A program made the translations under genes and the position numbers. DNA of 64,000 bases from contig NZ_CP073100.1 of the NCBI RefSeq assembly GCF_018137965.1, forward strand, positions 2,553,754 through 2,617,753, given 5' to 3'. This document shows, in pieces, positions 2,276 through 22,582 of this stretch. This DNA is from Luteolibacter ambystomatis. Its GTDB lineage: Bacteria > Verrucomicrobiota > Verrucomicrobiia > Verrucomicrobiales > Akkermansiaceae. Within the stretch, counting starts at the first letter, position 1. Every line of letters starts with the position of its first letter. The notes beneath the pieces are model-generated. The model had not been told where the DNA came from. It worked only from the letters and a program-made list of their open reading frames with translations, and made no database searches.

Positions 2276-2842
2276 CTCCGCGCTTCCGCGGCCCACCATC
2301 GTGCCCGGAAGGCGCGTGCCATGCCACGGGCATTGCGGTGTATTACTAGAATCACCGTATCAAAGATGTTCCTTCCGCGGCCGCCCCGGCAGACCTGGTG
2401 ACGCGTGCGGTGCCGGTGAAAATTCACCCGAATGGGTGATTGGGCGGATCACCCGGAGGAGATAGGGTGTCACCAGCATCATTCCGGGGAAGCATCCTGC
2501 TCATCGCCGTCCTTGCGGCCCTGCGGAGGATGACGACCTGCGGTCCTACTCCCGCCAGGCGTGGGAGCCGCATGATGCACCAAACCCAAAACCCAAAAAC
2601 ACCTGCTCCCGATCCAACAAGGAGCAAGCTCGAAGCGCCCGGCGCCTGTCAGGCATTCTCCTGGCAGGTGCCACCCCTTTTCCGGCACCGGCGGCGACTC
2701 CGATGACAGATTTCCCGGTTGCCTGGATGAAGTCCGCCCTGAAGCGCGGATGGCGGCAAGGAACGGGTAGCGGGGTGGTGCGAAATAGGATCCGCGCCAT
2801 CCCGCAATCCGGCAGGATGGGTGGAACTCCGGCCTGTCATTC
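2276..2842. other. Non-coding stretch with module-like relics
   Basis: No convincing gene lies in this 567-bp gap. It holds a perfect copy of the 16-bp palindrome seen before the kinase genes (2424-2439). It also holds an 18-bp stretch (2343-2360, TTACTAGAATCACCGTAT) that closely matches a segment inside both kinase genes (4702-4719 and 15189-15206). A 9-bp hairpin with one G-U pair (CCTGTCAGG/CCTGGCAGG, 2645-2668) could be a terminator. The two shared motifs suggest a decayed third kinase/regulator module; that is inference. Confidence 0.4.
2424..2439. promoter_or_regulatory. Operator-like palindrome TCACCCGAATGGGTGA (orphan copy)
   Basis: A 6-bp perfect dyad with a 4-bp centre, identical to the copy at 3291-3306. 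No gene start lies at the usual 50-120 bp distance on either strand, so this copy appears orphaned. A partial second dyad (TCACCC/GGGTGT with an 11-bp gap) follows at about 2449-2471. Confidence 0.5.
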
Positions 2843-3199
2843 TCAATCGGCGGATGGCGGAGGAGTGCCGCGCGCTTCATCGAAGAGGCGCATCGCCAGG
2901 AGGCCGTTTCCCGCCGCGCCTCCCGCACGCAGCGCCGCCGCGATGAACACGGTCTCCGCGATTTCCTCGCGGGTGGCCCCCGCCTTCACGGCGTTCTGGA
3001 CATGGGATTCGATGCAGTACGCGCATTGGGTGGTCAGCGCGACTCCGATCGAGATGAGTTCGCGATATTTCGCAGGGATGGCTCCATCGGTGCGCTCGGC
3101 GGTGTACTTGAGGTTGAAAAACGCGCCGGCTTCCTTGGGGGCTCCGTCGATCAGTGCTTGGATGTACGCGCGGTCTTCCGGTGCTTGATACGATGACAT
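2843..3199 (-). CDS. AhpD-like / carboxymuconolactone decarboxylase family protein
   Basis: 118 residues, the usual size for a single-domain CMD/AhpD-like protein. The redox motif CAYCIESH gives Cys59, Cys62 and His66, the CxxC-xxx-H arrangement of alkylhydroperoxidase AhpD-type enzymes. These form helical oligomers and reduce peroxides through the cysteine pair. It is cytoplasmic. It is divergent from the first kinase gene, and the kinase palindrome (3291-3306) lies 92 bp upstream of this start, so the site could serve both directions. The physiological reductant is unknown from context. Confidence 0.85.
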   Translation of the reverse strand: MSSYQAPEDRAYIQALIDGAPKEAGAFFNLKYTAERTDGAIPAKYRELISIGVALTTQCAYCIESHVQNAVKAGATREEIAETVFIAAALRAGGAAGNGLLAMRLFDEARGTPPPSAD

Positions 3200-3290
3200 G
3201 GGATGCGGGATGAGGTTTCAGCGAAGCCCCGGCACCACACCAACGGGCAATCGTGACTTGTGATTCTGATCCCTCTTCCGCAGAATCGCA

Positions 3291-3306
3291 TCACCCGAAT
3301 GGGTGA
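3291..3306. promoter_or_regulatory. Operator-like palindrome before kinase 1
   Basis: TCACCCGAATGGGTGA, ending 51 bp before ATG 3358. The homologous kinase at 13848 has TCACCAGAATGGGTGA at nearly the same distance, and both are followed by AATCTG. This spacing supports both the site and the chosen start codons. Likely ligand: one of the NarL-type regulators encoded nearby (inference). Confidence 0.6.
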
Positions 3307-3357
3307 ATCTGAACCTTCATGGAAACCCCGGTTCCGGGAATCCCCCGACGGAAACCG

Positions 3358-6330
3358 ATGATTGCGCACGGACCAGCCGCTTTTTTCACACGTGTGCTTC
3401 TCATCGCAGCCTCGTGGGTGCTGCCGGGAAGAGCCGAGGACAGCCGCGCCTGGCTGAACCGCTCGTGGCAGATGAGCGAAGGCATGCCGAACAACGCGGT
3501 GACCGGCATCACCCAGGACCCGCAGGGATACATCTGGGTCTCCACCTGGTGGGGGATCGCTCGCTTCGACGGAGTGAAGTTCGACAACATCGTGGACGAG
3601 CTCCCGGGCGGAACGGTGTTCTGCATCGAGCGGGACCACCGCGGCCGGATCTGGGTGGGCACGGCCGCGGGAGTCGCCTGGCGCGAGGACGGGGTGTGGA
3701 AACGTCCGCCGGGAAGTACGACCGATCCCGTATATGCGCTGCAGGAGACCGCGGATGGCACGATGTGGGCCGGTGGCTACTACCACAGTTGGAAGATCTC
3801 CGGCTCCGGCACCATCCAGATGGATTTCCCCCAATCCAGCCCCCATATCCGCGCCCTGCGGGCGGATGGCGATGGCGGGATGTGGCTGCTGGGCCGGACC
3901 CAGCTTTTCCATTGCACGGCGGATGGCGCACCCGTGGCGGTGCTGGGTCCGTGGAACGGGCAGGAACTCGACGGACTGGGATATGACCGCGACCAACGGC
4001 TGGTGGTGTGTGGAAATGGAACGCTGGTGAGAAAGGACGGCGGGATCTGGACGGATCTGCTCCCGCTGATTCCCGGAGGTGGCAAGGACACCTTCAACGC
4101 CTGCACCACCGGACCGGACGGAACGCTGTGGCTGGCGACACGCAACGCGGGACTGGTGTATCTCGATGGAGAGACGCACGGCCGCATCGATGCTCCGGCC
4201 TCGCTTTCCCTCAATGACACCCGCTGCGTCTTCTTCGACCGGCAGGGCACCCTCTGGGTGGGGACGAACGGAGGAGGACTGGACCGCCTGCGCCGCCGCA
4301 CCTTCGACAGCTACGGCCCGGCGGAGGGACTGGGGCGGAATGTGACCTCCGCGATCGCAATCGGTCCGGACGGAGTGGTGCGCGTCGGCACGGATGGCTC
4401 CGGCATCTTCCGCATGGAGAAAGGCCGCTTCGTGCCGGACCAGCAGGAAGCCGGGCTGCCGGAGCGCGCGCCCATCTGGTCGATGACCTATGATCCGCAG
4501 GGAACCCTGTGGGTGGGCTTCGAGCGGGAGGAACTTTTCCGGGTGCGGGATGGGAAGGCGGAAGCGGTGCGCGGTGTCTTCATCCCGCCGAATGAATCCC
4601 CCACCCTGTTCCATTCGCTGAAGCCCGCCCGGGACGGAGGCCTGCTGCTGGGGATGTCCTACCACGGCCTGCGGAAACTGGAGGACGGGACCTGCCGGAC
4701 ACTACTAGAGAGACCGTACGTGGGCTCCGTGACCCACACGCTGGAGGACTCGCGCGGCAGGCTGTGGGCGGCGGCCAGTGGAGAGGGCGCGTGGGTTTTC
4801 GAGAACGGCGCCTGGCGGGATGTGCGCAAGGACATCGGGGTGCGGAATTTTTCTCCGTCCATCCTCGCGGAGGCCGCGGAGGGAGGAATCTGGATCGGCT
4901 CGTTCGGCGAGGGGCTGGTCCTGTGGCGGGACGGCCATGTGAAATGGTGGGGCAGGAAGGAAGGTCTCATCAGTCTGGCGATCTTCCAGATCGAGGTGGA
5001 CGACCACGGCCACCTGTGGCTGGGCACGGACCAGGGATTGCAGCGTCTCGACATCGCGGAGCTGGAGCGCTCGCCGGGCAACGACGGCCTGCCCTTGCAC
5101 AGTCTCCGCTTCAACCGCGCGGACGGTCTGCCACCCGGGCAGTTCACGGTCGCCCATGGCAATGCGTCCCTGAAGGCACCGGATGGCTCGCTGTGGTTCT
5201 CACTGGCGGGCGGTGCGATCCACGTGGACCCGACGGTGACACTGAGGGCCCCGGAAGCGCCGCAGGTTCACATCGAGAGCGCCTCGGACAGCCGCGGCAC
5301 GTTCTGGCAGTTTGAGAATCCGGCGCAGCACGGCCGCGTCGTGCAGCCACCGGGCTCCGGCAGATTGTTGATCCGCTTCACCGCGCCGGAATTCGTCCGG
5401 CCGGAGGAACTCCGCTTCCGTTACCGGCTGGCCGGAATGGAAAAGGATTGGCGGGAGAGCGGCGGAGACCGCACGGCCGGCTATCCGCTGCTGCCACCGG
5501 GCGAATACCGCTTCGAGGTGGCGGTGGCCACACCGGAAGGCGGCTGGTCCGCGAAACCCGCCTCCGTGGTGGTGATGGTCCAGCCGTTCATCTGGCAAAC
5601 GGCCGCCTTCCGCATCGCGGCGGTCACGCTGGCACTGCTGGGAGCGGGCATCCTGGTGCGGAAATGGAGCGAGCGGCGGCTGAAGCGGAAGATGGCCCGG
5701 CTGATGCAGGAGACACGCCTGGAGCGCGAGCGCACCCGCATCGCCGGAGATCTGCATGACGATCTGGGAGCCACGCTCAGCGAGATCAATTTCATCGGCA
5801 CCTTCGCCGCCGATACCTACTCCGGTCATCCCGTGCGGCAGAGCCTGGAGAACATCGTGGACCGCGCGCAGCGGATGGCGAAGTCGCTGGATGAAATCGT
5901 GTGGACCGTGAATCCCGCCCACGACCGCCTCCCGTCCGTGGCCCGCTATCTGTGTTCCCGCTGTCAGGAGAGCCTCGGCACCGCGGGCATCCGCTGCCGC
6001 CTGGATGTGGCGGAAAGATTGCCGGACGTGCCGCTCGATTCACAACTCCGCCACCACCTGTTGATGGCGGTGAACGAGATCATCCACAATGTGATGAAGC
6101 ACTCCGGGGCCACCGGCTGCACGCTGGCCATCCGCCTGGAGAAGCATGAACTGGTCATCCGCGTGACGGACGACGGGCGGGGCTTCGACCGCTCCGAATG
6201 CCCGGTGGACCGGAACGGCCTGGCCAACCTGGAGCGCCGCATGAACGAGATCCAGGGTTCCTTTGAAATCACCAGTTCGCCCGGCCACGGCACGAAGGCC
6301 ACGCTGCGGGCACCACTCCCATCCTCGTAA
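3358..6330 (+). CDS. Reg_prop/Y_Y_Y sensor histidine kinase 1
   Basis: 990 residues. A signal peptide (about 1-26, ending LPGRA) is followed by a long beta-propeller of Reg_prop-like repeats (about 35-650; recurrent GYIWVST, GRIWVGT, GTLWVGT strands). Then come a Y_Y_Y Ig-like domain (about 665-735), one transmembrane helix (about 744-766), a HisKA_3 dimerisation box with DLHDDLGATLSE (phosphoacceptor His800), and a HATPase_c domain (N box NEIIHNVMKHSG; DDGRGFD; GNGLANLERRM). The architecture is that of periplasmic-sensing NarX/LiaS-class kinases. ATG 3358 was preferred over 3319, because the residues from MIAHG align with the paralogue's MIPHG start and keep the palindrome at equal distance. 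Its partner is the regulator at 6411. The ligand is unknown; carbohydrate sensing is common for this architecture but not shown here. Confidence 0.9.
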   Translation: MIAHGPAAFFTRVLLIAASWVLPGRAEDSRAWLNRSWQMSEGMPNNAVTGITQDPQGYIWVSTWWGIARFDGVKFDNIVDELPGGTVFCIERDHRGRIWVGTAAGVAWREDGVWKRPPGSTTDPVYALQETADGTMWAGGYYHSWKISGSGTIQMDFPQSSPHIRALRADGDGGMWLLGRTQLFHCTADGAPVAVLGPWNGQELDGLGYDRDQRLVVCGNGTLVRKDGGIWTDLLPLIPGGGKDTFNACTTGPDGTLWLATRNAGLVYLDGETHGRIDAPASLSLNDTRCVFFDRQGTLWVGTNGGGLDRLRRRTFDSYGPAEGLGRNVTSAIAIGPDGVVRVGTDGSGIFRMEKGRFVPDQQEAGLPERAPIWSMTYDPQGTLWVGFEREELFRVRDGKAEAVRGVFIPPNESPTLFHSLKPARDGGLLLGMSYHGLRKLEDGTCRTLLERPYVGSVTHTLEDSRGRLWAAASGEGAWVFENGAWRDVRKDIGVRNFSPSILAEAAEGGIWIGSFGEGLVLWRDGHVKWWGRKEGLISLAIFQIEVDDHGHLWLGTDQGLQRLDIAELERSPGNDGLPLHSLRFNRADGLPPGQFTVAHGNASLKAPDGSLWFSLAGGAIHVDPTVTLRAPEAPQVHIESASDSRGTFWQFENPAQHGRVVQPPGSGRLLIRFTAPEFVRPEELRFRYRLAGMEKDWRESGGDRTAGYPLLPPGEYRFEVAVATPEGGWSAKPASVVVMVQPFIWQTAAFRIAAVTLALLGAGILVRKWSERRLKRKMARLMQETRLERERTRIAGDLHDDLGATLSEINFIGTFAADTYSGHPVRQSLENIVDRAQRMAKSLDEIVWTVNPAHDRLPSVARYLCSRCQESLGTAGIRCRLDVAERLPDVPLDSQLRHHLLMAVNEIIHNVMKHSGATGCTLAIRLEKHELVIRVTDDGRGFDRSECPVDRNGLANLERRMNEIQGSFEITSSPGHGTKATLRAPLPSS

Positions 6331-6334
6331 GAAA

Positions 6335-6379
6335 CACCCCATTCTGGTGGTTTGCCGATCCGGCGTCCGGTGGCAGACT
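6335..6379 (+). promoter_or_regulatory. Degenerate palindrome plus extended -10 before regulator 1
   Basis: CACCCCATTCTGGTGG (6335-6350) is a weaker, one-base-longer version of the kinase palindrome. A TGGCAGACT box (6371-6379) sits about 24 bp downstream, like TGGTATGAT and TGGCATGAT before the other two regulators. The geometry would place an activator near -43. No Shine-Dalgarno sequence is seen before the gene; its leader resembles that of regulator 2. Confidence 0.35.
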
Positions 6380-6410
6380 TCCGCCGTCACCTTTCTTTTT
6401 CATTCCGCTC

Positions 6411-7043
6411 ATGTCGTCCAGGATCATCATCGTCGAAGACAACCACGTCGTCCGGGGCTGCCTTGAGGAATTGGCCAATACCCTGCCCGGCTGCGAGTGC
6501 GTGGGGGCCTTCGCCAGCGCGGAGGAAGCCCTGAAGCTGGCCGTGCATCTCAAGCCGGATCTGGCGATGATGGACATCCATCTGCCGAACCTCTCGGGCA
6601 TCGAATGCGCGTCCCGCCTGAAGCAATCGCTGCCGGACCTGCGCATCCTGATGCTCACGATGTATGAGGATGAGGAGAAGATCTTCGAAGCCTTCAAGGC
6701 CGGAGCCAGCGGCTACCTTCTGAAGCGCAGCAGCCCGCGGGAGATCAAAGGCGCGATCGAGGAGATCCTCCGCGGCGGCGCACCGATGACGAGCGCGATC
6801 GCGCTGAAGGTGGTGGAATCCTTCCGACCCACGCAGGCGAAGGACGCGGACGCGCCGGAGCTCTCCCGCCGCGAGACCGAGGTGCTGGGTTGCCTGACCA
6901 AAGGATACTCCAACAAGGAGATCGCCGAAGAACTCAGCATCTCCCCCGATACGGTCCACTGGCACCTCAAGCAGATCTACGACAAGCTCCATGTGAAGGG
7001 CCGCACCGAAGCCGCGCTGAAGTACATGGGGATGAAGGGGTAG
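6411..7043 (+). CDS. NarL/FixJ-family response regulator 1
   Basis: 210 residues. The receiver domain has acidic Glu9/Asp10, phosphoacceptor Asp55 (MMDIHLP) and the conserved Lys in GYLLKRSSP. The C-terminal LuxR-type HTH (about 148-205) reads LSRRETEVLG...GYSNKEIAEEL...SPDTVHWHLKQIY. It is 80 bp after kinase 1 on the same strand and is its likely phosphotransfer partner. The separate promoter-like element in the gap suggests it can also be transcribed alone. It is closely related to the regulators at 16898 and 17683. The repeat-protein gene on the opposite strand, with a similar palindrome, is its most plausible target. Confidence 0.92.
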   Translation: MSSRIIIVEDNHVVRGCLEELANTLPGCECVGAFASAEEALKLAVHLKPDLAMMDIHLPNLSGIECASRLKQSLPDLRILMLTMYEDEEKIFEAFKAGASGYLLKRSSPREIKGAIEEILRGGAPMTSAIALKVVESFRPTQAKDADAPELSRRETEVLGCLTKGYSNKEIAEELSISPDTVHWHLKQIYDKLHVKGRTEAALKYMGMKG

Positions 7044-7310: not shown

Positions 7311-10300
7311 TCACAAGACCGGCAGCTTCAGGCGCAGGAAAAGACGGGAGGATACGGCCAGAGCCCGCGGCACCGTCACCGTCACGACCCCGCTGGGATC
7401 GGAGACAATGGACACCCCATCCACCCCATCCACCGCGTCCGTCCAAACGCTCAGATCCGAGCTGTATTGGACGACGGAAGGGTAGTTCGCAGCCTGGCCG
7501 TCCCGGAAATAGATGAACTGCACGCTGCCCGGCGGATACATCACCACCGGCAGGAGAGCGCCATCGCCGGAGGCCGCGGGATTTCCGCCGATGAGGAACT
7601 CGATGCCGTTCCGGATGCCATCGTGATCGTCATCCGCATTCGCCTCCCCCACCCCATGGCTCACGGCCCAGGCGGTATAGCTGCCGGGACCGGCCACCGT
7701 GAGACGGCCGCTGCCGGAGAAGTGCGCGTCATCGATGATGCCGGCACCGGAACCGGTGGCCCCATAGGTGCCGGAGGCCATGGCGACACCGTTGATGAAC
7801 AGTGCGCCCACGATGTCCGCCTGGCCGTGGGTCAGCGCCAGCTTCGCGCCATCGGCGATGTTGACCGTGGAGCTGTCATCCAGCGTGGCCGCTCCCAGGG
7901 AGAGCGTGCCCGCGCTGATCGTGGTATTTCCCGTATAGGAAGGATGGGCCACGATGGCGGTGTTGCCGCCGGTCTTCGTCAATGCGGCGGCACCTGTCAC
8001 CGTCCCGGTCAGGGCCAGCACGTTCGGGCCTGCATCCAGCGTGAAGGCATCCGTCACGGAAACCGCTCCCGTCCAGGTGCCGGTATCGCCGCCCTCCACA
8101 TACAGGGCGCCGCCGGATTCGAGGATCACCGGAGTGGCGATGGTCCGTGTGCCATAGGTGCCGACGCGTGCGCCGCTTTTCACCCGCACGTCTCCGGTGG
8201 TGCCGCCGAGGGCCTTGTCGGAATTCTCGACCCAGACACGGCCCGCGGCCACCACGTAGTGGATGGGTGAACCGGAGGCATCCCCGCGGATGCCCATGCC
8301 CTTGTCGGCATTGAGCGTGAGGGTATGGCCGTTGCCGGTGATGATGCCCACGCTGTTGTTGGTCCGGCAGAGATCGAAGCGGCCACCCTTCGCCCCCAGC
8401 GAGGCATCCGCGGACAAGGTGAAGTTCCGGATGCCGGAGCCTTCATAAATATCGCCGCCGCTGTTGGCCAGCGCGCCGAAGCCGTCCACGCCATCCCCCG
8501 CCACGGTGTAGTCCGTCACGCGGCCGGACCACGCGGGTGCATTGCCGGCGAAATCCAGCGTCGCTCCCGCGGCCACCGTCACTCCGGAGGTGAAGCCAAG
8601 CGGCTCCCAGTTGTTCAGCTTGATGGTGCCCGCATTCAGCAGAACCGGTCCGGTATAGCTGCTGCCGGTGCCGCCGAGCACCAGCGTGCCGGTGCCGTTC
8701 TTGGTGAGGCCCGTGGGACCGGTGATGCCATTGCCATTGCCGGCATTCAGCGTGTACGTGTTCGCGGTGTTGAAGGTGACGGAGGTCGGCTGGACCACGG
8801 CGTTCAGATCTACGGTATTCACCGTAGATGTATCGTCGAACAGGACGTCATCCCCCAGCAGGAAGGGAATGTTGCCCGAGCCCGCGGTCCAGTTCGTGCT
8901 GCCATTCACATCCCAGGTGGTATTCGCCGCGCCGGTCCAGACCAGCGGCAGGTTGCTGCCGGACACGGTGAGATTGATGACGCCGGGGGTGGAGGTATCC
9001 AGCGCCACGGTCTTGCGGTAGAGGCTGCTGTCGATCGTGAAGCCGCCCGCTCCCGCCAGCCCGCCGTGATTCATGACCGGCCAGGTGCCGTTCGCGGGCA
9101 GCGAGGGAAGCGTGAGCTTGTTCGGCCCCTCGAAGGTCACCGTTCCCAGCACCGTGAGCGGGGAGCCCGGAGTGAGGGCCAGCTTGGCCCCGGCGGTGGT
9201 GCCCACCGTGAGATTGCCGTTGATCGTGCCGGTGCCGCCGAGGGTGAGCCCGTCATTGACGATGACGCTGCCGCCCAGGGTCCCGTTGAGGTTCGCCCGG
9301 CCGCGGGTCAGGGTGAACGCGCCGGTGTAGCCGGGGGAGCTTCCATTGAGATTGAGGGTGCCGGACGCATCGTAGGTGCTGGTTCCCAACTCCAGCGCGG
9401 CGGTGCCGCTCAGGGCGCCGCTGATGGTGGCGGTGGAACCGCCATTCACCACCACGCGGGCCGCTCCCGTGAGCGCCACCGGCCCGCCGAGCACCACCCC
9501 ATCGCTGAAGCGGATCGCCCCGAGCTGGCCCACGCCTTCCGACCAACCATTGCCCTCGATCTGGATCGCATTCGCGAAGGTGCCGTTGGCATTGAACCAG
9601 AGCTGCGAATTGGTGCCGACCGCCCGCGCCATGCCGGTGCCCAGCGAGTTGGTGTTATCCAGCCTCAGACGGCCGTTGTTGACCCAGGTGCCGCCGGTGT
9701 AGGTGTTGGCGGAATTGATCGCGAAGTGGTCGCCCCCGGTCTTGATGAGCTTGAGCGGCGTGGAACCGTTGTAGTCCTTGATGACCGCTTCATTGACCTG
9801 GTAGTTGTCTCCTCCCCCGTTCGCCACGATGGCGAGGGTGCCGGAGGACGAGGTTACGAAGCCGCTGCCGCTGCCGACCTTCAGCCAGTGGCTTTGGTTG
9901 TGAAACATCAGGCCGCCGAGCGCGATATCCACGGTGGCACCGTTGCTGATGAGGAAATCGCGGGTGGTTTCCAGATTTCCGATCGACTGGCTGGTGGCCA
10001 CGGTGGAGTCGGAAAAGCCGTCGAAGTAAGTCGTGGGGGCCGTGGCGGTGGCGAGGGTGCCGGGGCCGATGGCCTTCTCGGCATTCGAAACCGGAACCAC
10101 CTGCGTGCCATCGTATTTCAGGAAGCCCCACTGGGTATGGGCCCAGCCCGGCAGCGGCCCGGTGGCGGGAGTGGAACCATTGATCGTGCCCAGCGTGATC
10201 GCGGTATTCGAGAAGAAGTCGAAGCCGATGCTGTCACCGGCATTCACATTGACGTTGGCGGTGGTGCCGTTGATAAAAGTTTCAACGGCGTGGCTCAATC

Positions 10301-10367: not shown

Positions 10368-10463
10368 CGGATGGGTTTGGGGAGTGGCTTTGCAATGGAC
10401 TCACGGCATCCAAGCGGAGGTTCCGTGTGGTAATACCTTGCAATCCCCCGCTCCGGTGCGCAC

Positions 10464-10479
10464 CCACCCGAATGGGTGG
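10464..10479. promoter_or_regulatory. Operator-like palindrome before repeat protein 1
   Basis: CCACCCGAATGGGTGG, a 6-bp dyad with the same centre as the kinase sites. On the minus strand it is followed by GTGCGC, and 28 bp later by GGTATTAC, a possible -10. The second repeat-protein gene has the same order (palindrome, GTGCGC, TGACAT at the same offset). Confidence 0.5.
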
Positions 10480-13782: not shown

Positions 13783-13798
13783 TCACCAGAATGGGTGA
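13783..13798. promoter_or_regulatory. Operator-like palindrome before kinase 2
   Basis: TCACCAGAATGGGTGA, one mismatch from perfect symmetry, ending 49 bp before ATG 13848. Spacing and the AATCTG flank match the kinase 1 site. Confidence 0.6.
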
Positions 13799-13847: not shown

Positions 13848-16820
13848 ATGATCCCGCATGGTGCCCCTGCCTTTCTTTCCCGCGTCCTGCTGGCGATGGC
13901 GGGACTGATGTTGCCGGGCCCGGGCGATGAAGGGCGGACGTATCTGAACCGCGTCTGGCAGATGAGCGAGGGGCTGTCCAACAACGGAGTGAACTCCATT
14001 TGCCAGGACGCGCAGGGATACATCTGGGCCGCCACCTTCAATGGAATCGACCGCTTCGATGGCATGAAGTTCGAGAACTTCACCACGCGCGATGGACTTC
14101 CCAGCAATCACGTTGTCTGCGTGTTCGCGGACAGCAGGGGGCGCCTGTGGGTCGGCACCATCGCCGGGATCGCATGGCGGGAGAACGGCACGTGGAAGAA
14201 GCTGCCGGACGGCCCGAAGGGGAACGCCTACCTGCGCGAAGCATCCGATGGCACGATCTGGGCCGCCTGCGATGATCAAATCTGGAAGATCTCCGGCGAT
14301 CGCGCCACCCACATGGACGTGCCGGGCTCCAATCCGAATCTTCACGCGCTGCTGCCGGATGATGCGGGGGGCATGTGGATCCTCGGCCGCAGCAACGTTT
14401 ACCACTGCACCCGTGATGGAGAGCCGCAGGAACTTCGCGGCCCGTGGACCGACGATCTGGAAGGACTGACCCGTGATCGCGAGGGACGGCTGGTGGTGTG
14501 CGGGAATGGCATGATCGTGAGACGGGATGCGGACGGCTGGACGGACCTGTGTCCGCTCATTCCCGGCAGCACGGAGGATGCGATCCATACCTGCATGACC
14601 ACGGCGGATGGCACGCTGTGGCTGGCCACGCGCAATGCGGGTCTGGTCTATCTGGATGGAAAAGCGACGGACCGCCTCGACACGCCGGCCACCATCTCGG
14701 TCAATGACACCCGCTGCCTTTTCATCGACCGCCAGGGAAGCCTGTGGGTGGGCACGAACGGCGGCGGACTGAACCAACTGCGCCGCCGGATGTTCGACAG
14801 CTACGGCCATGCCGAGGGACTCGGGCGTGCCGTGACCACCGCCATCGTGAGCGGGCCGGACGGAGTGCTGCGGATCGGCACGAACGGCTCGGGCGTGGTG
14901 CGCAAGGAGGGAGCGCGTTTCGTGCCGGACCTGCGGGGCACCGGACTGCCGGAGCGCGTTCCGGTGTGGTCGATGGCTTATGACAAGGAGGGAGCGTTGT
15001 GGGTGGGAGCCTACCGCGATCCCCTGTTCCGGGTGAAGGATGGCCGGGCCTCGCAGGTGGCGTCCATGTTCCCGGAAGGCGCTCCCTACACGCAGTTTCT
15101 CTCTCTCCACGCCTCGCGCGATGGCGGGCTGCTGCTGGGGATGAGCGGCTACGGGCTGCGCAGGCTGGAGGGAGGATCGTGCCGCGTGCTACTAGAAAAA
15201 CCGTACGTTTGGAACATCTACGACACGCTGGAAGACTCGCACGGGAACCTGTGGGCCGCGGCGGGCAGGGAGGGCGTGTGGCTTTCCGGGAAAGAAGGCT
15301 GGCGGGACATGCGGCCTGAGACGGGCGTCGCTTACATGAATGCGGCGGTACTGACGGAAAGCGCGGGCCGCGGCGTGTGGATCGGCACGCTCGGACAGGG
15401 ATTGATCCAGTGGCGGGATGGCCGTGCGAAACGCTGGACCGGAAAGGAAGGCCTGGTCAATGACGCGATCTGCCAGATCGAGGCGGATGACCGGGGTTAT
15501 CTCTGGCTGGCGACGGAAGGTGGCTTGCAGCGGCTCGAGCTGGCGGAGCTGGAGAATTCGCCGGGCCTCGGGGGCCCACCCTTGCATGGGGTGAGCTTCA
15601 GCCATGCGGATGGCCTGCCACCAGGACAGTTCACCACGGGTCATGGCACCCTGTCCCTCAAAGCGCCGGATGGCTCGCTGTGGTTTTCGTTGTCAGGTGG
15701 TGCGATCCATGTGGACCCTGCGGTGGAATTGATGGAGCCGGCCGCGCCAGTGGTTCACATCGAGAGCGCCGCGAACAACCGTGGCAGGCTTTGGCAATTC
15801 GAGACCGCCACGACACGCGACCGGCTCGTGCAGCCCGCGGGCGCGGGCACGCTGCTGATCCACTTCACCGCGCCGTATTTCATCCACCCGGAGAAATTGC
15901 GCTTCCGCTACCGCATGAGCGGATTGGAGACGGAGTGGCGGGAGGCGGGAAGCGAACGCACCGCCGGCTACGCGATGCCGCCGCCGGGCGAATACCGCTT
16001 CGAGGTGATGGCCGCCACCTCCGGCAGCGGATGGCCCGCGACCCCCACGGTGATGACCGTGGTAGTCCAGCCGTTTTTCTGGCAGACGGTGGGATTCCGC
16101 GTCATTGCCACGGCGGCGGGATTCATCGCACTGGGCATCGGCATGCGGACATGGACGGAGCGCCGGATGAAGCGGAGGATGGCGAGACTGGAGGAGGAGA
16201 CCCGCCTGGAACGCGAACGCAGACGCATCGCCAGCGACCTGCACGATGATCTCGGAGCCACCCTCAGCGAGATCAATTTCATCGGAACCTTCTCCGCCGT
16301 CACCTACACCGACCATCCCGTGCGGGACAATCTCCAGCACATCGTGACCCGTGCGCAGCGGATGGCGAAGTCCCTGGACGAGATCGTGTGGACCGTAAAC
16401 CCCACGCACGACAACCTTTCATCGGTGGCACGCTATCTCTGCTCACGCAGCCAGGAGAGCCTCCGGACCGCAGGCATCCGCTGCCGCCTGGACGTATCCG
16501 AGGACCTCCCGGAGGTGACCTTCGATTCGCAACTCCGGCATCACCTGCTGATGGCGGTGAACGAAATCATCCACAACGTGATGAAGCACTCCGGAGCCAC
16601 CGAGTGCATGCTGTCCATTCACCGGGAGCAGGACGAGCTGGTCATTTCCGTGCGGGACAACGGCCGCGGCTTCCGCCGCTCGGAATGCCCCGCGGATCGG
16701 AACGGGCTGACCAATCTCGAACGCCGGATGAATGAAATCCACGGCAGCTTTGAAATCACCAGCACGCCCGGCCAGGGCACCCTCGCCGTCCTTCGTTCGC
16801 CACTGCCGCTTCAGAAATGA
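13848..16820 (+). CDS. Reg_prop/Y_Y_Y sensor histidine kinase 2
   Basis: 990 residues, the same length as kinase 1 and alike throughout. It has a signal peptide (MIPHGAPAFLSRVLLAMAGLMLPG), a Reg_prop propeller (about 35-650), Y_Y_Y domain, one transmembrane helix (about 744-766), HisKA_3 box DLHDDLGATLSE (His799), and HATPase_c with NEIIHNVMKHSG and DNGRGFR. The sensor propeller differs more than the kinase core, suggesting duplication followed by ligand divergence. ATG 13848 is preferred to upstream in-frame starts, which would read through the palindrome and the htpG promoter region. It is followed by two regulators. Confidence 0.9.
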   Translation: MIPHGAPAFLSRVLLAMAGLMLPGPGDEGRTYLNRVWQMSEGLSNNGVNSICQDAQGYIWAATFNGIDRFDGMKFENFTTRDGLPSNHVVCVFADSRGRLWVGTIAGIAWRENGTWKKLPDGPKGNAYLREASDGTIWAACDDQIWKISGDRATHMDVPGSNPNLHALLPDDAGGMWILGRSNVYHCTRDGEPQELRGPWTDDLEGLTRDREGRLVVCGNGMIVRRDADGWTDLCPLIPGSTEDAIHTCMTTADGTLWLATRNAGLVYLDGKATDRLDTPATISVNDTRCLFIDRQGSLWVGTNGGGLNQLRRRMFDSYGHAEGLGRAVTTAIVSGPDGVLRIGTNGSGVVRKEGARFVPDLRGTGLPERVPVWSMAYDKEGALWVGAYRDPLFRVKDGRASQVASMFPEGAPYTQFLSLHASRDGGLLLGMSGYGLRRLEGGSCRVLLEKPYVWNIYDTLEDSHGNLWAAAGREGVWLSGKEGWRDMRPETGVAYMNAAVLTESAGRGVWIGTLGQGLIQWRDGRAKRWTGKEGLVNDAICQIEADDRGYLWLATEGGLQRLELAELENSPGLGGPPLHGVSFSHADGLPPGQFTTGHGTLSLKAPDGSLWFSLSGGAIHVDPAVELMEPAAPVVHIESAANNRGRLWQFETATTRDRLVQPAGAGTLLIHFTAPYFIHPEKLRFRYRMSGLETEWREAGSERTAGYAMPPPGEYRFEVMAATSGSGWPATPTVMTVVVQPFFWQTVGFRVIATAAGFIALGIGMRTWTERRMKRRMARLEEETRLERERRRIASDLHDDLGATLSEINFIGTFSAVTYTDHPVRDNLQHIVTRAQRMAKSLDEIVWTVNPTHDNLSSVARYLCSRSQESLRTAGIRCRLDVSEDLPEVTFDSQLRHHLLMAVNEIIHNVMKHSGATECMLSIHREQDELVISVRDNGRGFRRSECPADRNGLTNLERRMNEIHGSFEITSTPGQGTLAVLRSPLPLQK

Positions 16821-16823: not shown

Positions 16824-16869
16824 TCAACCATTTCGGGGGATAGGATTGTCCGGCTCCGGCTGGTATGAT
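16824..16869 (+). promoter_or_regulatory. Degenerate palindrome plus extended -10 before regulator 2
   Basis: TCAACCATTTCGGGGGA (16824-16840) is a weak version of the kinase palindrome. TGGTATGAT (16861-16869) is a good extended -10, about 24 bp downstream. No Shine-Dalgarno sequence is seen. Confidence 0.35.
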
Positions 16870-16897: not shown

Positions 16898-17530
16898 ATG
16901 TCCTTCCGAATCATCATTGTCGAAGACAACCACGTTGTCCGGGGCTGCCTCGAAGAATTGATCCACACGATGTCCGGCTGCGAATGCGTGGGGAGCTTCA
17001 TCACCGCGGAGGAAGCTCTGAAGCTGGCCGTGCATCTCAAGCCGGATCTGGCGATGATGGACATCCACCTGCCGAACCTCTCCGGCATCGAATGCACCGC
17101 CCGCCTGAGGGAGATGCTGCCGGATCTGCGGGTGCTGATGCTGACGATGTACGAGGATGACGACAAGATCTTCGAAGCCTTCAAGGCCGGAGCCAGCGGC
17201 TATCTCCTGAAGCGCAGCAGCCCGCTCGAAATCCAGGGTGCGATCGAGGAAGTCCTCCGGGGCGGAGCGCCGATGACCAGCGCCATCGCTCTGAAGGTGG
17301 TGGAATCGTTCCGGCGCACGCCGAAGAAAAATCCGGGTGACCCGGAACTCTCCCGGCGCGAGAAGGAGATCCTGCAATGCCTCGCCAAGGGCTCCGCGAA
17401 CAAGGAGATCGCCGACGAACTCGGCATCTCACCCGATACGGTCCACTCGCATCTGAAGCAGATCTACCACAAGCTCCACGTGAAAGGCCGCACGGCCGCG
17501 GCGCTGAAATTCCAAGGCATGCAGGAGTAA
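16898..17530 (+). CDS. NarL/FixJ-family response regulator 2
   Basis: 210 residues. Receiver with Glu9/Asp10, phosphoacceptor Asp55 (MMDIHLP) and Lys in GYLLKRSSP. The LuxR HTH is at about 148-205 (LSRREKEILQ, SANKEIADELGISPDTVHSHLKQIY). It is very similar to regulator 1 in the receiver, with more change in the recognition helix region (TVHSHLKQ versus TVHWHLKQ). It is 77 bp after kinase 2 and is its likely partner. Confidence 0.92.
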   Translation: MSFRIIIVEDNHVVRGCLEELIHTMSGCECVGSFITAEEALKLAVHLKPDLAMMDIHLPNLSGIECTARLREMLPDLRVLMLTMYEDDDKIFEAFKAGASGYLLKRSSPLEIQGAIEEVLRGGAPMTSAIALKVVESFRRTPKKNPGDPELSRREKEILQCLAKGSANKEIADELGISPDTVHSHLKQIYHKLHVKGRTAAALKFQGMQE

Positions 17531-17612: not shown

Positions 17613-17657
17613 TCACCCTTTCAGGCGAGTGACCCTTTCCAACCCCGGTGGCATGAT
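17613..17657 (+). promoter_or_regulatory. Degenerate palindrome plus extended -10 before regulator 3
   Basis: TCACCCTTTCAGGCGA (17613-17628) keeps a perfect left arm and a 2-mismatch right arm of the kinase palindrome. TGGCATGAT (17649-17657) follows at the same offset as in the other two regulator promoters. Confidence 0.35.
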
Positions 17658-17682
17658 CGGACGACCCATCCTTTCCCTGGTC

Positions 17683-18318
17683 ATGCCATTCAAGATCACT
17701 ATTGTCGAGGACAGCCATGTCATCAGGAGTTGCCTGGCACAGCTGGTCAACACGCTGCAACGTTGTGAATGCGCGGGAGATTTCGCGAACGCCGGGGAAG
17801 CGCTCGCAGCAGCTTCCAGCCTGTCCCCGGATCTCGTTTTGATAGACATCCATTTGCCGGACCGTTCCGGCATCGAGCACACGGCGCGCTTGAAGGATCT
17901 GCTGCCGGAGTTGCGGATCCTGATGCTCACCCTGTTCGACGAACAGGACAAGATCTCCGATGCCTTCAATGCCGGAGCCACCGGATACAGCTTGAAACGC
18001 GGCAGTCCGCGGAAGATCAAAAAAGCCATTGAAGAGATCCTCCCGGGCGAAGTTCCGATGACCAGCGCCATCGCGTCGAAGGTGGTGGAATCCATCCGGT
18101 CTTCATCGAAGAAGCGGATGGCGGATGAACCGGATCTCTCCCGCCGCGAAACCGAGGTGCTGGGCTGGGTGACGAAAGGATACTCAAACAAGGAAATCGC
18201 CAAAGAACTGGGCCTCTCGCCGGATACCGTCCACTGGCACCTGAAGCAGATCTACGAAAAGCTCCGGGTCAAAAGCCGCACGCAAGCGGCATTGAAGTTC
18301 ACAGACATGAAGAGATGA
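17683..18318 (+). CDS. NarL/FixJ-family response regulator 3 (extra regulator)
   Basis: 211 residues from ATG 17683; MPFKITIVEDSH aligns with the starts of regulators 1 and 2, while two upstream in-frame starts (17629, 17653) do not. Receiver Asp55 lies in VLIDIHLP, with Lys in GYSLKRGSP. The LuxR HTH reads LSRRETEVLG, GYSNKEIAKELGLSPDTVHWHLKQIY. Its receiver is the most diverged of the three, but its HTH is closer to regulator 1 than to regulator 2. There is no third kinase beside it, so it may be cross-phosphorylated by kinase 1 or 2. It is convergent with repeat protein 2. Confidence 0.9.
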   Translation: MPFKITIVEDSHVIRSCLAQLVNTLQRCECAGDFANAGEALAAASSLSPDLVLIDIHLPDRSGIEHTARLKDLLPELRILMLTLFDEQDKISDAFNAGATGYSLKRGSPRKIKKAIEEILPGEVPMTSAIASKVVESIRSSSKKRMADEPDLSRRETEVLGWVTKGYSNKEIAKELGLSPDTVHWHLKQIYEKLRVKSRTQAALKFTDMKR

Positions 18319-18384
18319 GGTTCCGACGCAAAGAGAGTGGAATCCGGTTCGAGAAGATCGGATAGGACGGACGAGTATGGAATG

Positions 18385-18436: not shown

Positions 18437-18476
18437 AGTGATCGCAATCGGGACGCAGCTCGGAAGCAGTGGGAAC

Positions 18477-18536
18477 GGCAGCTGCCCATGAGCAGCCACC
18501 GCTCCGCGCTTCGTTCATTGCATGCTACCCAGGAAA
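18477..18536 (-). repeat. 3'-hairpin element, copy 5 (weak stem)
   Basis: It keeps TTTTCCTGGGTAGCATGCAATG in minus orientation, 35 bp after the stop of repeat protein 2. The following inverted repeat is short (GCTGC/GCAGC, 18481-18496). As after repeat protein 1, two copies lie in tandem. Confidence 0.45.
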
Positions 18537-18570
18537 ACGTTTCCGAGAGCACGGCGTTCCGGATTTCCCC

Positions 18571-21500
18571 TCACTGCGCCTCCGTGACCGTGGCGCGGAG
18601 GAAGAACATCGGATTCGCTTCCGAGTTCGGGATGTAGAAGAAACGGTTCGAGTAGCCGGCGGGAGCCGGCACGGCTGCATCCATCAACGGCTGGCGATCC
18701 GCCACCGGCACCTCGGCGGCCGGGATGCTGGTCCAATCGATCAGGTCGAGGCTGGCCTGGATGTTGTAGGTGATTCCGGAGATCGTGGCGGTTGGCCCGC
18801 CCGCGAAGTTCGCTCCGCTTCTCACCGGTACGGTGAGGGTCAGCATCCGATTGCCGTTCACCATCGCCATGCGGCTCACGATCCTCAGGTTGGTCGCCCC
18901 GGACACCGGGCTGCCACCGAAGGCGAATTCATGCAGGTTGTTCAGGCCATCGTGATCCGGATCGGCGTCCTTCAGCTTGTCCGCGGGATTGACCAGCCCG
19001 GGGTAGCTGTTGGTCCAGGTGGCATACGGGTCCGCGGTCAGGCCCATGAAGTTCGCGGCATCCTCCGCGATCTGGGCCGGGGCCAGCGCGATCTTGTCAA
19101 AGCGGAGGCGGGCGATCTCGCCATTGAAGAACCGGCGGTCGGCACCGTTCACCACGTTATAGCCGATCCCGAAAGGCGAATTGCGGATGGCGTCCCCGGG
19201 AGAAGACGTTGCATAGGTGAGCGCGGAGCTCTTGCCCTGGCTCACGCCATTGATGAAGGTCTCGATGGTGTATTTGGTCGCATCGGTCCCGGAGGGATTC
19301 TGGTCCACGACCATCGTCACCGTCTTCCACTCGTCTGCGGTCACCGCCCCGCCTTTCACAAAAAAGTCTCCGCCGCAGGCCACGGCTCCATTGAGTGTAT
19401 TGGCGCTGGAAAATCCGAACTGGAATTCACCTTGGTTGGCACCGCCCAATTCAAAGCCGGTGATCATGTTGTATTGGTAAGCGTTGGCATCGGGTCCGGC
19501 TCCCGTCCCGGGAGTCGCACCCACCTTGATCACCGCGGTAACCGTGAACTCCTTCAGGTTGCCCAGCAGGGAGGATGAGTCCGAGGCGAAGCCCGAAGAG
19601 CCATTGAACTGAACCGTGGAAACCGGTTTGGACTGGATCGTGCCACTGCCCACGGTCGGCGTTCCGGCTCCGATCGTCGCGGGTTCGGAGGAGATCGCAT
19701 CGGTCCAGACTCCGGTGCCAGCCCAATCCTCCGCACGCCATTCCATGATGGCGGCGCGGGTCGCCACCGTGGTGACCGACAGACGGCCGGTGCCGGAGAA
19801 GTGGGTATTGTCGATGTTGGTGGCACCGGACCCGGTGGCACCATAAGTGCCGGGTGCCATCGCCACGCCGCCGATGAACAGTGCGCCCACCGTGTCCGCC
19901 TGGCCATGGGTGAGGCCGAGCTTCGCCGAGCCGCCGATGGTCACGATGGAACCGTCCGCCAGCGTGGCCGCCCCCAGCGACAGGGTGCCTGCGGTGACGG
20001 TGGTATCGCCGGTGTAGCCCGGCTGCGCCACGGTCACGGTCTGCGCGCCGGTCTTGGTGAGAGACGCATTGCCGGTGACCGGCCCGGTGACAGTCACGGT
20101 ATTCGGACCCGCATCGAAGGTGACCGCGCCGCTCAGGGAAATCGGGCCGGTCCAGGTGCCATTGCCACCTCCTTCCGCATACAGGCCACCACCGTTCTCG
20201 ATGGTCACCGGCGTGGGGACTGTGAGGCCGGTCCACATCCCAAGACGCGCGCCGCTTTTCACCAGCACGGTGCCTGTGGTGCCGCCGAGCGCGTTGTTGG
20301 AGGTCTGCGCCCACACCCTTCCGGAGGCCACCACATAGTGGATCGGCGAGCCCGAGGCATTTCCGTGCACGCCGATGCCTCTGCCCGCATTGAGCGTGAG
20401 GGTGTGATTGTTGCCGGTGGTGATGCCGCCGGTGCCACTGCCGAAACCGATGTCCAGACGCCCTGTGTTCCCGTTGACCGAGGCATCCCCGGTCAAGGTC
20501 ACGTTGCGGACGCCCGAGTTCTCGTTGACGTCTCCGCCCGTATTCGTCAACGCACCCAGCCCGTCCACTCCATTGCCTTCGATGGTGTAGTCCGCGATGC
20601 GTCCCGCCGTCCTGGGCGTGTTGCCGTTGAAATCCACGGCCGCCCCGGCCACCACCGTGACTCCAGAAGTGAAGCCGAGCGGTTCCCAGTTGTTCAGCTT
20701 GATGATGCCCGCGTTGATCTGTACCGGACCGGTGAAGGCATTGCCGATGCCGCCGAGCACCACGGTGCCGGTGCCGTTCTTGGTGATGCCGGTGGGGCCG
20801 GTGATGCCATTGCCCGCCGCGCAGTTGATCGTGTAGGTGCTGCTGTTGTTGAAGGTGACGGAACCCGGCTGCAAGAGTCCGAGAATCGTCACGGTTTTCG
20901 CGGTGGCGGTTTCATCAAAGAGGACGTCATCGCCCTGGAGGAACGTGATGTTTCCCGCTCCCGCGCTCCAGTTCGCACCCGCGTTCAGGTCCCAGTTCCC
21001 ATTTGTCGCGCCGGTCCATGTCAGCGGCAAGCCGCTGCCCGAAACCGTGACGGCGATGACTCCCGGCGCGGAGGTGTCCACGGCCAGGGTCTTGCGGTAG
21101 AGCGTATTGTCGATGGAGAGATTGGAGGGATTGACCAGCGTGCCGTAGTTGAGCACGGGATAGGTGCCGTTGGCCGGCAGCGTGGAAATGGTCAGCTTGT
21201 TCGGGCCATTGAGGGTCGCCGTTCCGAGGACTTTGAGAGGAGATCCCGGAGTCAGAGCCAGCGTCGCACCCGCCGTCGTTCCGACAGTGAGGTTGCCATT
21301 GATCGTACCGGTTCCGCCAAGCGTACGAGCGTCCGTTACATTCACGCTGCCGCCGAGGGTGGTGTTCACGTTCAAGCGGCCCCGGCTGATCGTCAAAAGC
21401 CCCGTGTAGCCCGAAGCATTTCCGTTGAGGTTGAGCGTGCCACTGACATCGAACGGGGCGTAACCCATTTCCAAGGCCGCCGTGCCAGTCAAGGCACCGG

Positions 21501-22449
21501 TGATGGTCGCGGTGGAATTGGGACTCACTGCCACACGGGCTGCTCCGGTGAGAGTCACCGGACCGCTGAGCGTGACTCCGTTGTTCAGGCGAAGGGCGCC
21601 AAGCTGGCCCACGCTTTCCGACCATCCATTCCCCACGATCTCAAACGCATTGGCGTAAGTCCCTCCTCCGGTCAGCCAGATCTGGCCATTGGTGTTCGCC
21701 ACCCGTGCGGTGCCCGTTCCGAGAGCGCCGGCGTTGTTGGCTTGAAGCCGACCGTTGTTCACCCAGGTGCCGCCGGTATAGGTGTTGGTCGCGCCGAGGT
21801 AGAGGTGGTCCGGACCCGCCTTGATCACTTTCAGCGGCGTGGTGCCATTGAAGTCCTTGATGACGACGTCATTCACCCGGTAGTCGCCGGCACCGCCATT
21901 GGCCACGAGGGCGAGTGCGCCGGACGAGGAAGTCACGAAGCCGCTGCCGGTGCCCACCTTCACATAGTGGCTGTCACTGGAGAACATGAGACCGCTGTTC
22001 GCGACATTCAGCGTGGCACCGTTGCTGATGAGGAAGTCGCGGGTGGTCTCGACCCATCCGATCGACTGGTTCGAGGCGGACGTGGTGGCCGCGAGACTGT
22101 CGTTATAAATGGAAGAGGCGGTGGCTGACGAGAGGTTGGCGGCACCCACGACCTTCTCACCGCTCGGGATCTCCAGCACCTGCGTGCCATTGTATTTCAC
22201 GAAGCTGTTCTGCGTGTGCGCCCAGCCGGGAAGCGGTCCGGTGGCGGGGGCCACCGAGTTGATGGTGGCGAGGGAGATGGCCGCATTGGTGTTCGTGGAA
22301 TCGAACCAGACACTGTCTCCCGTGTTCACCACCAGGTCGGTGACGGCGGAGTTGACGGTGATTTCACCCGCATGGGTGAATCCCGAAAACAGGATCAGGA
22401 TGGCGGTGGTTTGCAGGAGACGACTCCGGAGGGATGACTTGGGTTTCAT
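18571..22449 (-). CDS. Giant secreted protein with autotransporter-associated beta-strand repeats 2, plus LamG-like domain
   Basis: 1292 residues from ATG 22449; MKPKSSLRSRLLQTTAILILFSGFTHA matches the signal peptide of repeat protein 1, so the 39 extra upstream residues were rejected. Residues about 30-880 form the same Gly/Thr-rich beta-solenoid order as protein 1. It then adds a concanavalin/LamG-type jelly roll (about 905-1150: TVQFNGSSGFASD, EFTVTAVIKV, EWKTVTMVVDQ, FNGEIARLRFDK) and a C-terminal DPDHDGLNNLHEFAFGG plus beta domain. LamG domains usually bind glycans. The protein is convergent with regulator 3 and carries the kinase-type palindrome 118 bp upstream, so it is the second probable target of the regulon. 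Confidence 0.85.
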   Translation of the reverse strand: MKPKSSLRSRLLQTTAILILFSGFTHAGEITVNSAVTDLVVNTGDSVWFDSTNTNAAISLATINSVAPATGPLPGWAHTQNSFVKYNGTQVLEIPSGEKVVGAANLSSATASSIYNDSLAATTSASNQSIGWVETTRDFLISNGATLNVANSGLMFSSDSHYVKVGTGSGFVTSSSGALALVANGGAGDYRVNDVVIKDFNGTTPLKVIKAGPDHLYLGATNTYTGGTWVNNGRLQANNAGALGTGTARVANTNGQIWLTGGGTYANAFEIVGNGWSESVGQLGALRLNNGVTLSGPVTLTGAARVAVSPNSTATITGALTGTAALEMGYAPFDVSGTLNLNGNASGYTGLLTISRGRLNVNTTLGGSVNVTDARTLGGTGTINGNLTVGTTAGATLALTPGSPLKVLGTATLNGPNKLTISTLPANGTYPVLNYGTLVNPSNLSIDNTLYRKTLAVDTSAPGVIAVTVSGSGLPLTWTGATNGNWDLNAGANWSAGAGNITFLQGDDVLFDETATAKTVTILGLLQPGSVTFNNSSTYTINCAAGNGITGPTGITKNGTGTVVLGGIGNAFTGPVQINAGIIKLNNWEPLGFTSGVTVVAGAAVDFNGNTPRTAGRIADYTIEGNGVDGLGALTNTGGDVNENSGVRNVTLTGDASVNGNTGRLDIGFGSGTGGITTGNNHTLTLNAGRGIGVHGNASGSPIHYVVASGRVWAQTSNNALGGTTGTVLVKSGARLGMWTGLTVPTPVTIENGGGLYAEGGGNGTWTGPISLSGAVTFDAGPNTVTVTGPVTGNASLTKTGAQTVTVAQPGYTGDTTVTAGTLSLGAATLADGSIVTIGGSAKLGLTHGQADTVGALFIGGVAMAPGTYGATGSGATNIDNTHFSGTGRLSVTTVATRAAIMEWRAEDWAGTGVWTDAISSEPATIGAGTPTVGSGTIQSKPVSTVQFNGSSGFASDSSSLLGNLKEFTVTAVIKVGATPGTGAGPDANAYQYNMITGFELGGANQGEFQFGFSSANTLNGAVACGGDFFVKGGAVTADEWKTVTMVVDQNPSGTDATKYTIETFINGVSQGKSSALTYATSSPGDAIRNSPFGIGYNVVNGADRRFFNGEIARLRFDKIALAPAQIAEDAANFMGLTADPYATWTNSYPGLVNPADKLKDADPDHDGLNNLHEFAFGGSPVSGATNLRIVSRMAMVNGNRMLTLTVPVRSGANFAGGPTATISGITYNIQASLDLIDWTSIPAAEVPVADRQPLMDAAVPAPAGYSNRFFYIPNSEANPMFFLRATVTEAQ
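22363..22380. promoter_or_regulatory. Palindrome inside the coding start of repeat protein 2
   Basis: TTCACCCGCATGGGTGAA, a perfect 9+9 palindrome matching the operator consensus. It lies inside the codons for the signal-peptide end (FTHAGE). It is either a second operator copy downstream of the start or a coincidence of sequence; repeat protein 1 lacks it. Confidence 0.3.
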
Positions 22450-22566
22450 CGGGGAATTGGGTATTGCGTTGCACGATCCACGGAATCGGCGGCGGCCCCG
22501 TAATGGTCGGCCTTCTCCACTGAAACCGTGGGATGTCAGCATCGCGGCTTTGCTTTTTCCGCGCAC

Positions 22567-22582
22567 TCACCAGTACGGGTGA
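22567..22582. promoter_or_regulatory. Operator-like palindrome before repeat protein 2
   Basis: TCACCAGTACGGGTGA, followed on the minus strand by GTGCGC and a possible TGACAT -10 at the same offset as in repeat protein 1. Confidence 0.5.

Follow-up and report, generated by a model that had tools for sequence, protein, structure and literature searches.

A 16-bp dyad precedes genes of two paralogous signalling modules in a 64,000-nucleotide stretch of Luteolibacter ambystomatis DNA (NZ_CP073100.1, positions 2,553,754 to 2,617,753; part of a single 5.32-Mb contig, henceforth the window), each module being built of a sensor kinase gene, then a NarL/FixJ-type response regulator gene, then a convergent gene for a giant protein with PATR (autotransporter-associated beta-strand) repeats. 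Since the corresponding regulator and giant-protein genes of related genomes are preceded by matched dyads, the dyad is probably the docking site by which the regulator controls these two kinds of gene. Judging from sequence comparison, we consider it likely that the dyad is bound by the NarL-type regulators of the modules, which would activate transcription of the giant protein and regulate their own genes. The original prediction, made from the window alone, had the regulators control their own kinase and the giant protein. Its second half gained support from matched dyads at orthologues and a fixed spacing to a promoter-like hexamer, control of the kinase is less certain, and the regulator gene itself, which we found to be the most conserved target, had not been listed.

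Dyads in the window and in the genome

All five dyads that had been predicted (at 2424, 3291, 10464, 13783 and 22567; Table 1) were located, and their positions were correct. The predicted gaps also held, at 51 bp to kinase 1 (ATG at 3358), 49 bp to kinase 2 (ATG at 13848), 96 bp to repeat protein 1 (ATG at 10367, minus strand) and 117 bp to repeat protein 2 (ATG at 22449, minus strand). Allowing up to three mismatches, the window held nine matches (a count that includes the last site on both strands) against 0.75 expected, and 0 of 100 shuffles scored that high; the five sites are real and beyond chance. Absent from the earlier list were a looser dyad before each of the three regulator genes (at 6335, 16825 and 17613) and a match at 22364, inside the repeat-protein-2 gene, which is possibly due to chance.

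A genome-wide scan, which the original prediction had proposed, did not find the motif spread at random. Specifically, TCACCMGAATGGGTGA with at most one mismatch occurred at 4 places, all inside the window and one of them (22364) intragenic, while at most two mismatches gave 13 places, 6 of them in the window; perfect YCACCC-N4-GGGTGR dyads numbered 11 genome-wide, 4 in the window. Outside the window, both genome lists together comprised 13 distinct places. Predicted genes contained 11 of these, and at none of the 13 did a YANNNT hexamer (see below) stand 22-24 nt away (in two it stood at 25 nt).

The dyad accompanies the regulator gene in related genomes

We compared the window with related genomes, here labelled G019, G024, G026, G029, G074, G082 (the closest relative) and G086. 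A search for the TCACCC dyad found none at orthologous genes in the relatives, because these carry another version of it, which was spotted by reading the gaps between kinase and regulator genes: CCCCCCGCATGGGTGG in G082, CTACCCAAACGGGGGG in G026 and CTACCCATTCGGGGGG in both G019 and G086. In the seven regulators first collected, the dyad lay 43-60 bp before the ATG; a search of 18 further genomes added an eighth orthologue (67% identical) in G074, whose assembly of 12.6 Mb with 6% contamination may therefore be a mixture, and the dyad then stood 42-60 bp upstream of the ATG in 8/8 regulators (RR1-3, G082, G026, G019, G086 and G074). It is located between the kinase and regulator genes, except at RR3 and in G082.

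With a leave-one-out matrix, the dyad was the top match of the 280-bp upstream region in 7/7 regulators (scores 7.4-19.3), while the upstream regions of 40 other NarL-type regulators gave 8.1, 6.9 and then at most 5.4. The score of 8.1 belongs to L087 (G026 C182), a paralogous regulator (54% identical) with CTTCCCATTCGGGGTT upstream; a TATCAT, found by eye, follows 24 nt on, so this promoter type may extend to L087 as a remoter member. The TATCAT overlaps the start codon.

These distributions bear on the idea that some other DNA-binding protein recognises the dyad and that its closeness to the regulator gene is incidental. Although the identification of the binder is indirect here, we regard this as improbable: the dyad accompanies the regulator clade in 8/8 cases vs. 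at most 2/40 upstream regions of other regulators, in G082, whose kinase and regulator genes are ~15 kb apart, it remains with the regulator, and it resembles the sites of NarL-family proteins.

A -10-like hexamer follows the dyad at near-fixed distance

At all seven regulator genes, the -10-like hexamer that ranked first downstream of the dyad, alone or in a tie (two cases), stood at 22-24 nt, and in five of them at exactly 23 nt, with TG one base ahead of the hexamer in 5/7. We then considered a set of 12 sites, i.e., those of the seven regulators, of the giant proteins of G019, G086 and G082, and of repeat proteins 1 and 2. A YANNNT hexamer was present at 22-24 nt in 11/12 of them (nine at exactly 23 nt), a count that is partly circular because the form YANNNT was picked after the seven regulator sites had been viewed; across 5000 shuffles, the maximum count over all offsets was 7 (mean 3.2).

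Among sites beyond this set, those of the G029 giant protein (23 nt), of two GH2 genes (24 nt) and at 2424 (23 nt) fit the spacing and those of kinases 1 and 2 do not, bringing the running total to 15/18; two G074 sites and the G082 kinase site brought it to 18/21. The G074 contig was read after the rule had been set, and at both of its dyads the hexamer stands exactly 23 nt away, as CACTCT at the regulator dyad and as a perfect TATAAT at the other. The total of 18/21 leaves out TTCACCAATTGGGTGA (G086 kinase), TCACCCATTCTCCCGG (G026 kinase), a G024 dyad and CCACCCGATCGGGTGG of G074, the last two being without a hexamer. If the hexamer occupies -12 to -7, the dyad centre falls at -43.5; with start sites estimated from the hexamer in this way, the arrangement would match the geometry of NarL-type activators, in which a short palindrome lies upstream of the -10 element, near -40 to -45.

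It is hardly credible that the dyad works at the RNA level, forming a hairpin or terminator where the kinase gene ends. The dyad is indeed a short inverted repeat, and one minus-strand match (17628-17613) looks terminator-like, but the hexamer follows the dyad, which therefore likely lies upstream of the transcript. The dyad also occurs between divergent genes in G019 and G029 and before a regulator without a preceding kinase in G082, and several copies have mismatched inner pairs.

Giant PATR-repeat genes and a paralogue without the dyad

Four relatives (G019, G029, G086 and G082) carry the dyad before a giant PATR-repeat gene. In 73 genomes of the genus, exact CTACCCATTCGGGGGGC occurs in five copies (two in G019, one in G029 and two in G086); two precede the regulator, and the other three lie 131-143 bp upstream of the ATG of a giant PATR gene (PATR assigned by Pfam for G029 and G086, and by a near-identical N-terminus for G019). 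The giant PATR gene of G086 sits on a different contig, and the G029 contig, which ends inside the kinase gene, shows no regulator. In G082, CCACCCGGTTGGGGGG (spotted by eye) stands 53 bp before the PATR gene and has TATTTT at 23 nt. That gene is a reading frame of ~1755 residues and, like its counterparts in the window, converges with the regulator gene. A related dyad in G019 and G029 also faces a divergent GH2 beta-galactosidase gene.

Repeat protein 3, which is encoded in the same genome as the modules yet away from them, is 66% identical to repeat protein 1 and served as a control. No homologue of the module kinase or regulator was found in 15 kb around its gene, and no dyad before this gene or its G082 orthologue (best scores 7.1 and 5.7, respectively, in 350 bp upstream on both strands); the control upstream regions hold one partial match with two mismatches, ~5 bp before the ATG. 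The dyad therefore follows the regulator system and not the protein family. Because a conserved block without the dyad lies upstream instead, repeat protein 3 may be under a different regulator. This block, shared by the two loci (L073, own genome C1:3060000-3075000; L074, G082 C1:203000-222000), reads approximately CAAAAAGGGAAARATTTT...CCGAAAAGGGGAATCCC, followed by CGCTAGG or CGCTAAGG. We also noted CGGACGCTAGG before the kinases of G019 and G029.

Dyads at the kinase genes

Given that the modules are paralogous (kinases 63% and regulators 81% identical), the dyad copies could be functionless leftovers of module duplication, and in the upstream regions of the repeat-protein pair the dyad block barely stands out (17/22 columns vs. 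16 for the next blocks). The upstream regions of the two kinases (200 bp) are, however, ~50% identical, with the dyad and the following ATCTG clearly the best block (21/22 columns), and the dyad recurs at orthologous genes in other species; that the copies are mere leftovers thus seems very improbable.

On the matrix, reading the two window kinase dyads in reverse gives higher scores (20.8 and 19.3) than reading them in the forward direction (12.9 and 10.3). The kinase of G082 likewise has a dyad, CCATCCGTTCGGGGGG, 85 bp upstream that scores higher in reverse (minus strand, 16.5), and in the direction of the kinase TAGGCT follows at exactly 23 nt. The other relatives gave a weak TTCACCAATTGGGTGA ~200 bp upstream of the G086 kinase (score 8.6), a weak TCACCCATTCTCCCGG upstream of the G026 kinase (7.2), and no kinase dyad in G019 and G029, where both strands scored below 0. 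Given the conservation of the window kinase dyads and the hexamer of the G082 site, control of the kinase through the dyad is likely in G082 and plausible in the window, where the geometry differs.

The kinase sites also bring up an alternative that we consider unlikely, namely that the module regulators bind the dyad but repress, perhaps especially at the kinase genes of the window, where the dyad could lie over the transcription start. A precedent is described in the cited part of PMC4549865, in which NarL represses frdA from a 7-2-7 site at -4/+6. The dyads of the window kinases have no hexamer behind them, and just before them an A/T-rich, weakly -10-like sequence can be seen by eye; a consensus scan, however, found no promoter before these dyads. 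At the regulator and giant-protein genes, moreover, the dyad stands upstream of a hexamer at near-fixed distance, which is the geometry of activation, and the kinase site of G082 shows that geometry too.

Observations that weigh against activation through the dyad

Apart from the partial circularity of the hexamer count, several observations speak against the proposal that the regulators activate their targets through the dyad. The repeat-protein-2 site is the sole misfit of the 12-site set (GATGCT at +23), and the hexamers of RR1 and repeat protein 1 are weak. Two regulator sites, those of RR3 (7.6) and G082 (7.4), score under the best of the 40 unrelated upstream regions (8.1). The identical sites of G019, G029 and G086 are not independent, since these genomes are mutually close. 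TCACCC-type dyads had matches in 13 other genomes of the genus, with 16 sites listed outside G000; six of these were read, and they were three intragenic and three intergenic sites, with the hexamer in 0/6. The dyad at 2424 has no identified gene behind it. Finally, the dyads of kinases 1 and 2 have no YANNNT at any forward offset from 5 to 44, and a clear kinase site is lacking in 4/5 relatives.

Likeness to known systems and a possible mechanism

The regulators resemble Escherichia coli NarL both in their receiver and GerE-type output and in the 16-bp palindromic site. As described in the cited passages of PMC4549865, NarL dimers occupy 16-bp palindromic 7-2-7 sites, which are found at -40 to -49 for napF and at -38 to -47 for yeaR. 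These positions are comparable to the centre of -43.5 estimated here, and the CCC and GGG of the site TACCCCTAAAGGGGTA fall in register with those of most dyads in the comparison. The outer bases, the kinase input (nitrate for NarL) and the targets differ.

A second NarL/FixJ-subfamily regulator, BldM of Streptomyces, gives footprints on promoters with the 16-bp palindrome TCACcCgnncGgGTGA according to the excerpt of PMC4125116, and TCACCCGAATGGGTGA agrees with it at 13/14 specified positions. The same excerpt describes BldM as an orphan regulator of development from another phylum, probably not phosphorylated, which also forms heterodimers with WhiI on half-different sites. Given these NarL and BldM precedents, we took the module regulators as the binders of the dyad and, by default, assumed that they activate their targets, their own genes included. 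For OsdR/DevR, too, a 16-nt palindromic consensus was derived from the upstream regions of the regulator's own orthologues and an autoregulatory site is mentioned at devR (PMC5069765, in part). Both the OsdR/DevR site, AGGGCCGATCGGCCCT, and the regulon are unrelated to those considered here.

Sensors of the Bacteroides hybrid two-component systems carry Reg_prop and Y_Y_Y domains, as do the module kinases. In the cited part of PMC11253607, such systems place large sensor kinases over genes for polysaccharide use. Their layout, with kinase, receiver and AraC-type domain in one protein, was not found in the modules: kinase and regulator are separate genes, the kinases end with HATPase_c, and the regulators carry a GerE and not an AraC-type output. 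In the relatives, the kinase of G019 and G029 has a GH2 gene as its neighbour, and reading of G082 and G026 showed GH43- and GH16-like genes. The propeller sensors and these neighbouring glycan enzymes suggest a polysaccharide as the signal, which is a guess.

In the mechanism that we infer, the propeller-type sensor kinase would detect its ligand and phosphorylate its regulator, a dimer of which would sit on the 16-bp dyad, centred near -43.5 in the place of a -35 box, and recruit RNA polymerase to the -10 element, 23 nt further on. As conserved targets we propose the regulator's own gene, providing positive feedback, and the giant PATR-repeat gene, with the kinase genes of this genome also bearing the site. 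The system is duplicated in this genome, with a single type of site shared by the two modules and RR3, and these would probably be cross-wired into one local regulon.

RR1-3 have SPDTVH in the recognition helix, where the orthologues have TLETVR or TVETVR. The last of these residues, His in RR1-3 but Arg in all five orthologues, aligns with the lysine of NarL TVK, which contacts bases. Between the lineages the site is CTACCC/GGGGGG vs. TCACCC/GGGTGA, a difference that appears to fit the helix change in part. This raises a tentative idea, which we rather doubt than favour, that regulator and site co-changed (from CTACCC/GGGGGG towards TCACCC/GGGTGA) and that, after the duplication, RR1-3 came to pair both with themselves and with one another, in the manner of BldM and WhiI. 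Through symmetric and half-different dyads (RR2, RR3, repeat protein 2), two sensors could then control the two giant repeat proteins and the kinases in a graded and combinatorial way. Against the co-change, helix and site do not correspond cleanly: the sites of G082 (Arg) are intermediate, and those of RR1 and repeat protein 1 keep CC/GG ends.

Module genes and neighbouring features

Coordinates of the module features are collected in Table 1. The gene order that had been predicted to be the same in both modules is so overall, with the additional regulator RR3 in module 2. Response_reg and GerE exceeded the Pfam cut-offs in all three regulators; RR1 aligned with NarL at E 3.9e-30 and with VraR at 8e-34, and the phosphorylatable receiver Asp (DLAMMDIHLP in RR1, aligned to DLILLDLNMP of NarL) is the same in RR2 and RR3. 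The kinase start codons are uncertain: 3358 and 13848 were chosen because MIAHG and MIPHG align, other in-frame starts exist at 3319 and 13791, and a crude gene caller preferred 3394 and 13791 (genes in the fetched stretches were likewise called with a crude codon-usage script). In repeat proteins 1 and 2, no domain match to the C-terminal translocating beta-barrel of type Va autotransporters was found, and PATR/autotrns_rpt was the only match at E 0.001; their predicted status as surface proteins is therefore a presumption.

Table 1 Features of the two modules in the window
Feature	Position	Strand	Description
Dyad	2424..2439	+	TCACCCGAATGGGTGA; -10-like TAGGGT at +23 (2463-2468)
AhpD-domain protein	2843..3199	-	Divergent from kinase 1; 3291 dyad 91 bp before
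Dyad	3291..3306	.	TCACCCGAATGGGTGA; between AhpD gene and kinase 1; better score on minus strand
Kinase 1	3358..6330	+	Reg_prop propeller, Y_Y_Y, HisKA_3, HATPase_c; signal-peptide-like start by reading
Dyad	6335..6350	+	CACCCCATTCTGGTGG; before RR1
-10-like hexamer	6374..6379	+	CAGACT; 23 nt after RR1 dyad
RR1	6411..7043	+	NarL/FixJ-type response regulator; Response_reg, GerE
Repeat protein 1	7311..10367	-	1018 aa; PATR / autotransporter-associated beta-strand repeats
Weak -10-like hexamer	10435..10440	-	CAAGGT; 23 nt from repeat-protein-1 dyad
Dyad	10464..10479	-	CCACCCGAATGGGTGG (forward letters), CCACCCATTCGGGTGG in gene orientation; before repeat protein 1
Dyad	13783..13798	.	TCACCAGAATGGGTGA; before kinase 2; better score on minus strand
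Kinase 2	13848..16820	+	63% identical to kinase 1; Reg_prop propeller, Y_Y_Y, HisKA_3, HATPase_c
Dyad	16825..16840	+	CAACCATTTCGGGGGA; before RR2
-10-like hexamer, extended	16864..16869	+	TATGAT (TGG before); 23 nt after RR2 dyad
RR2	16898..17530	+	81% identical to RR1; Response_reg, GerE
Dyad	17613..17628	+	TCACCCTTTCAGGCGA; before RR3
-10-like hexamer, extended	17652..17657	+	CATGAT; 23 nt after RR3 dyad
RR3	17683..18318	+	Third regulator, right after RR2; 67% identical to RR1; Response_reg, GerE
Repeat protein 2	18571..22449	-	1292 aa; PATR repeats
Dyad	22364..22379	-	TCACCCATGCGGGTGA; within repeat-protein-2 gene; no hexamer at the spacing
Hexamer outside YANNNT	22538..22543	-	GATGCT; 23 nt from repeat-protein-2 dyad
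Dyad	22567..22582	-	TCACCAGTACGGGTGA (forward letters), TCACCCGTACTGGTGA in gene orientation; before repeat protein 2

Searched with a single kinase, the genome contig collection gave no match; the kinase alignment as query gave 80 loci, two of them orthologues (the G019 and G026 contigs) and the other 78 at most 32% identical, and no match in viral contigs. In the direction of the AhpD-domain gene, CAGAAT lies 22 nt from the 3291 dyad (3268-3263), making this gene a possible target of that dyad. A relic third kinase behind the 2424 dyad was considered and rejected: of the kinase N-termini compared, that of G086 gave a match equalled by only 4/300 shuffles, the other four kinases were unremarkable, and a profile built from seven such N-termini reached -0.1 bits vs. 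up to 6.0 in 1000 shuffles.

Some further observations concern the surroundings. A near-consensus promoter-like TTGACA-16-TATCAT (13518-13491), ~265 bp from the 13783 dyad, points into htpG. Positions 27500-45100 are dense in transposase genes or remnants (by reading), with one insertion element present twice (33011-34242 and 37266-38496) and two gene sets resembling IS66 parts (40196-44959), and a single reading frame of ~3257 residues occupies 45748-55521 on the minus strand. A further lead comes from G024, where a perfect dyad, TCACCCGTTCGGGTGA (L120 1437-1452, G024 C356), has a kinase of another subfamily (minus strand) on one side and lies 159 bp before a divergent, secreted-looking repeat-like protein, with no hexamer at 22-24 nt; this protein had no NCBIfam match (164 residues compared).

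Significance

PATR-repeat proteins are numerous in these genomes, and to our knowledge no regulator has been described for them; a description of such a regulon was also absent from the top-ranked matches in the open-licence literature. The dyad, the regulators and the hexamer spacing together supply one class of PATR proteins with concrete candidates for its regulator, its operator and its promoter rule, which can be checked in several species. The three paralogues and five orthologues would, in addition, form a natural series in which to follow how a NarL-type regulator and its site may change together.

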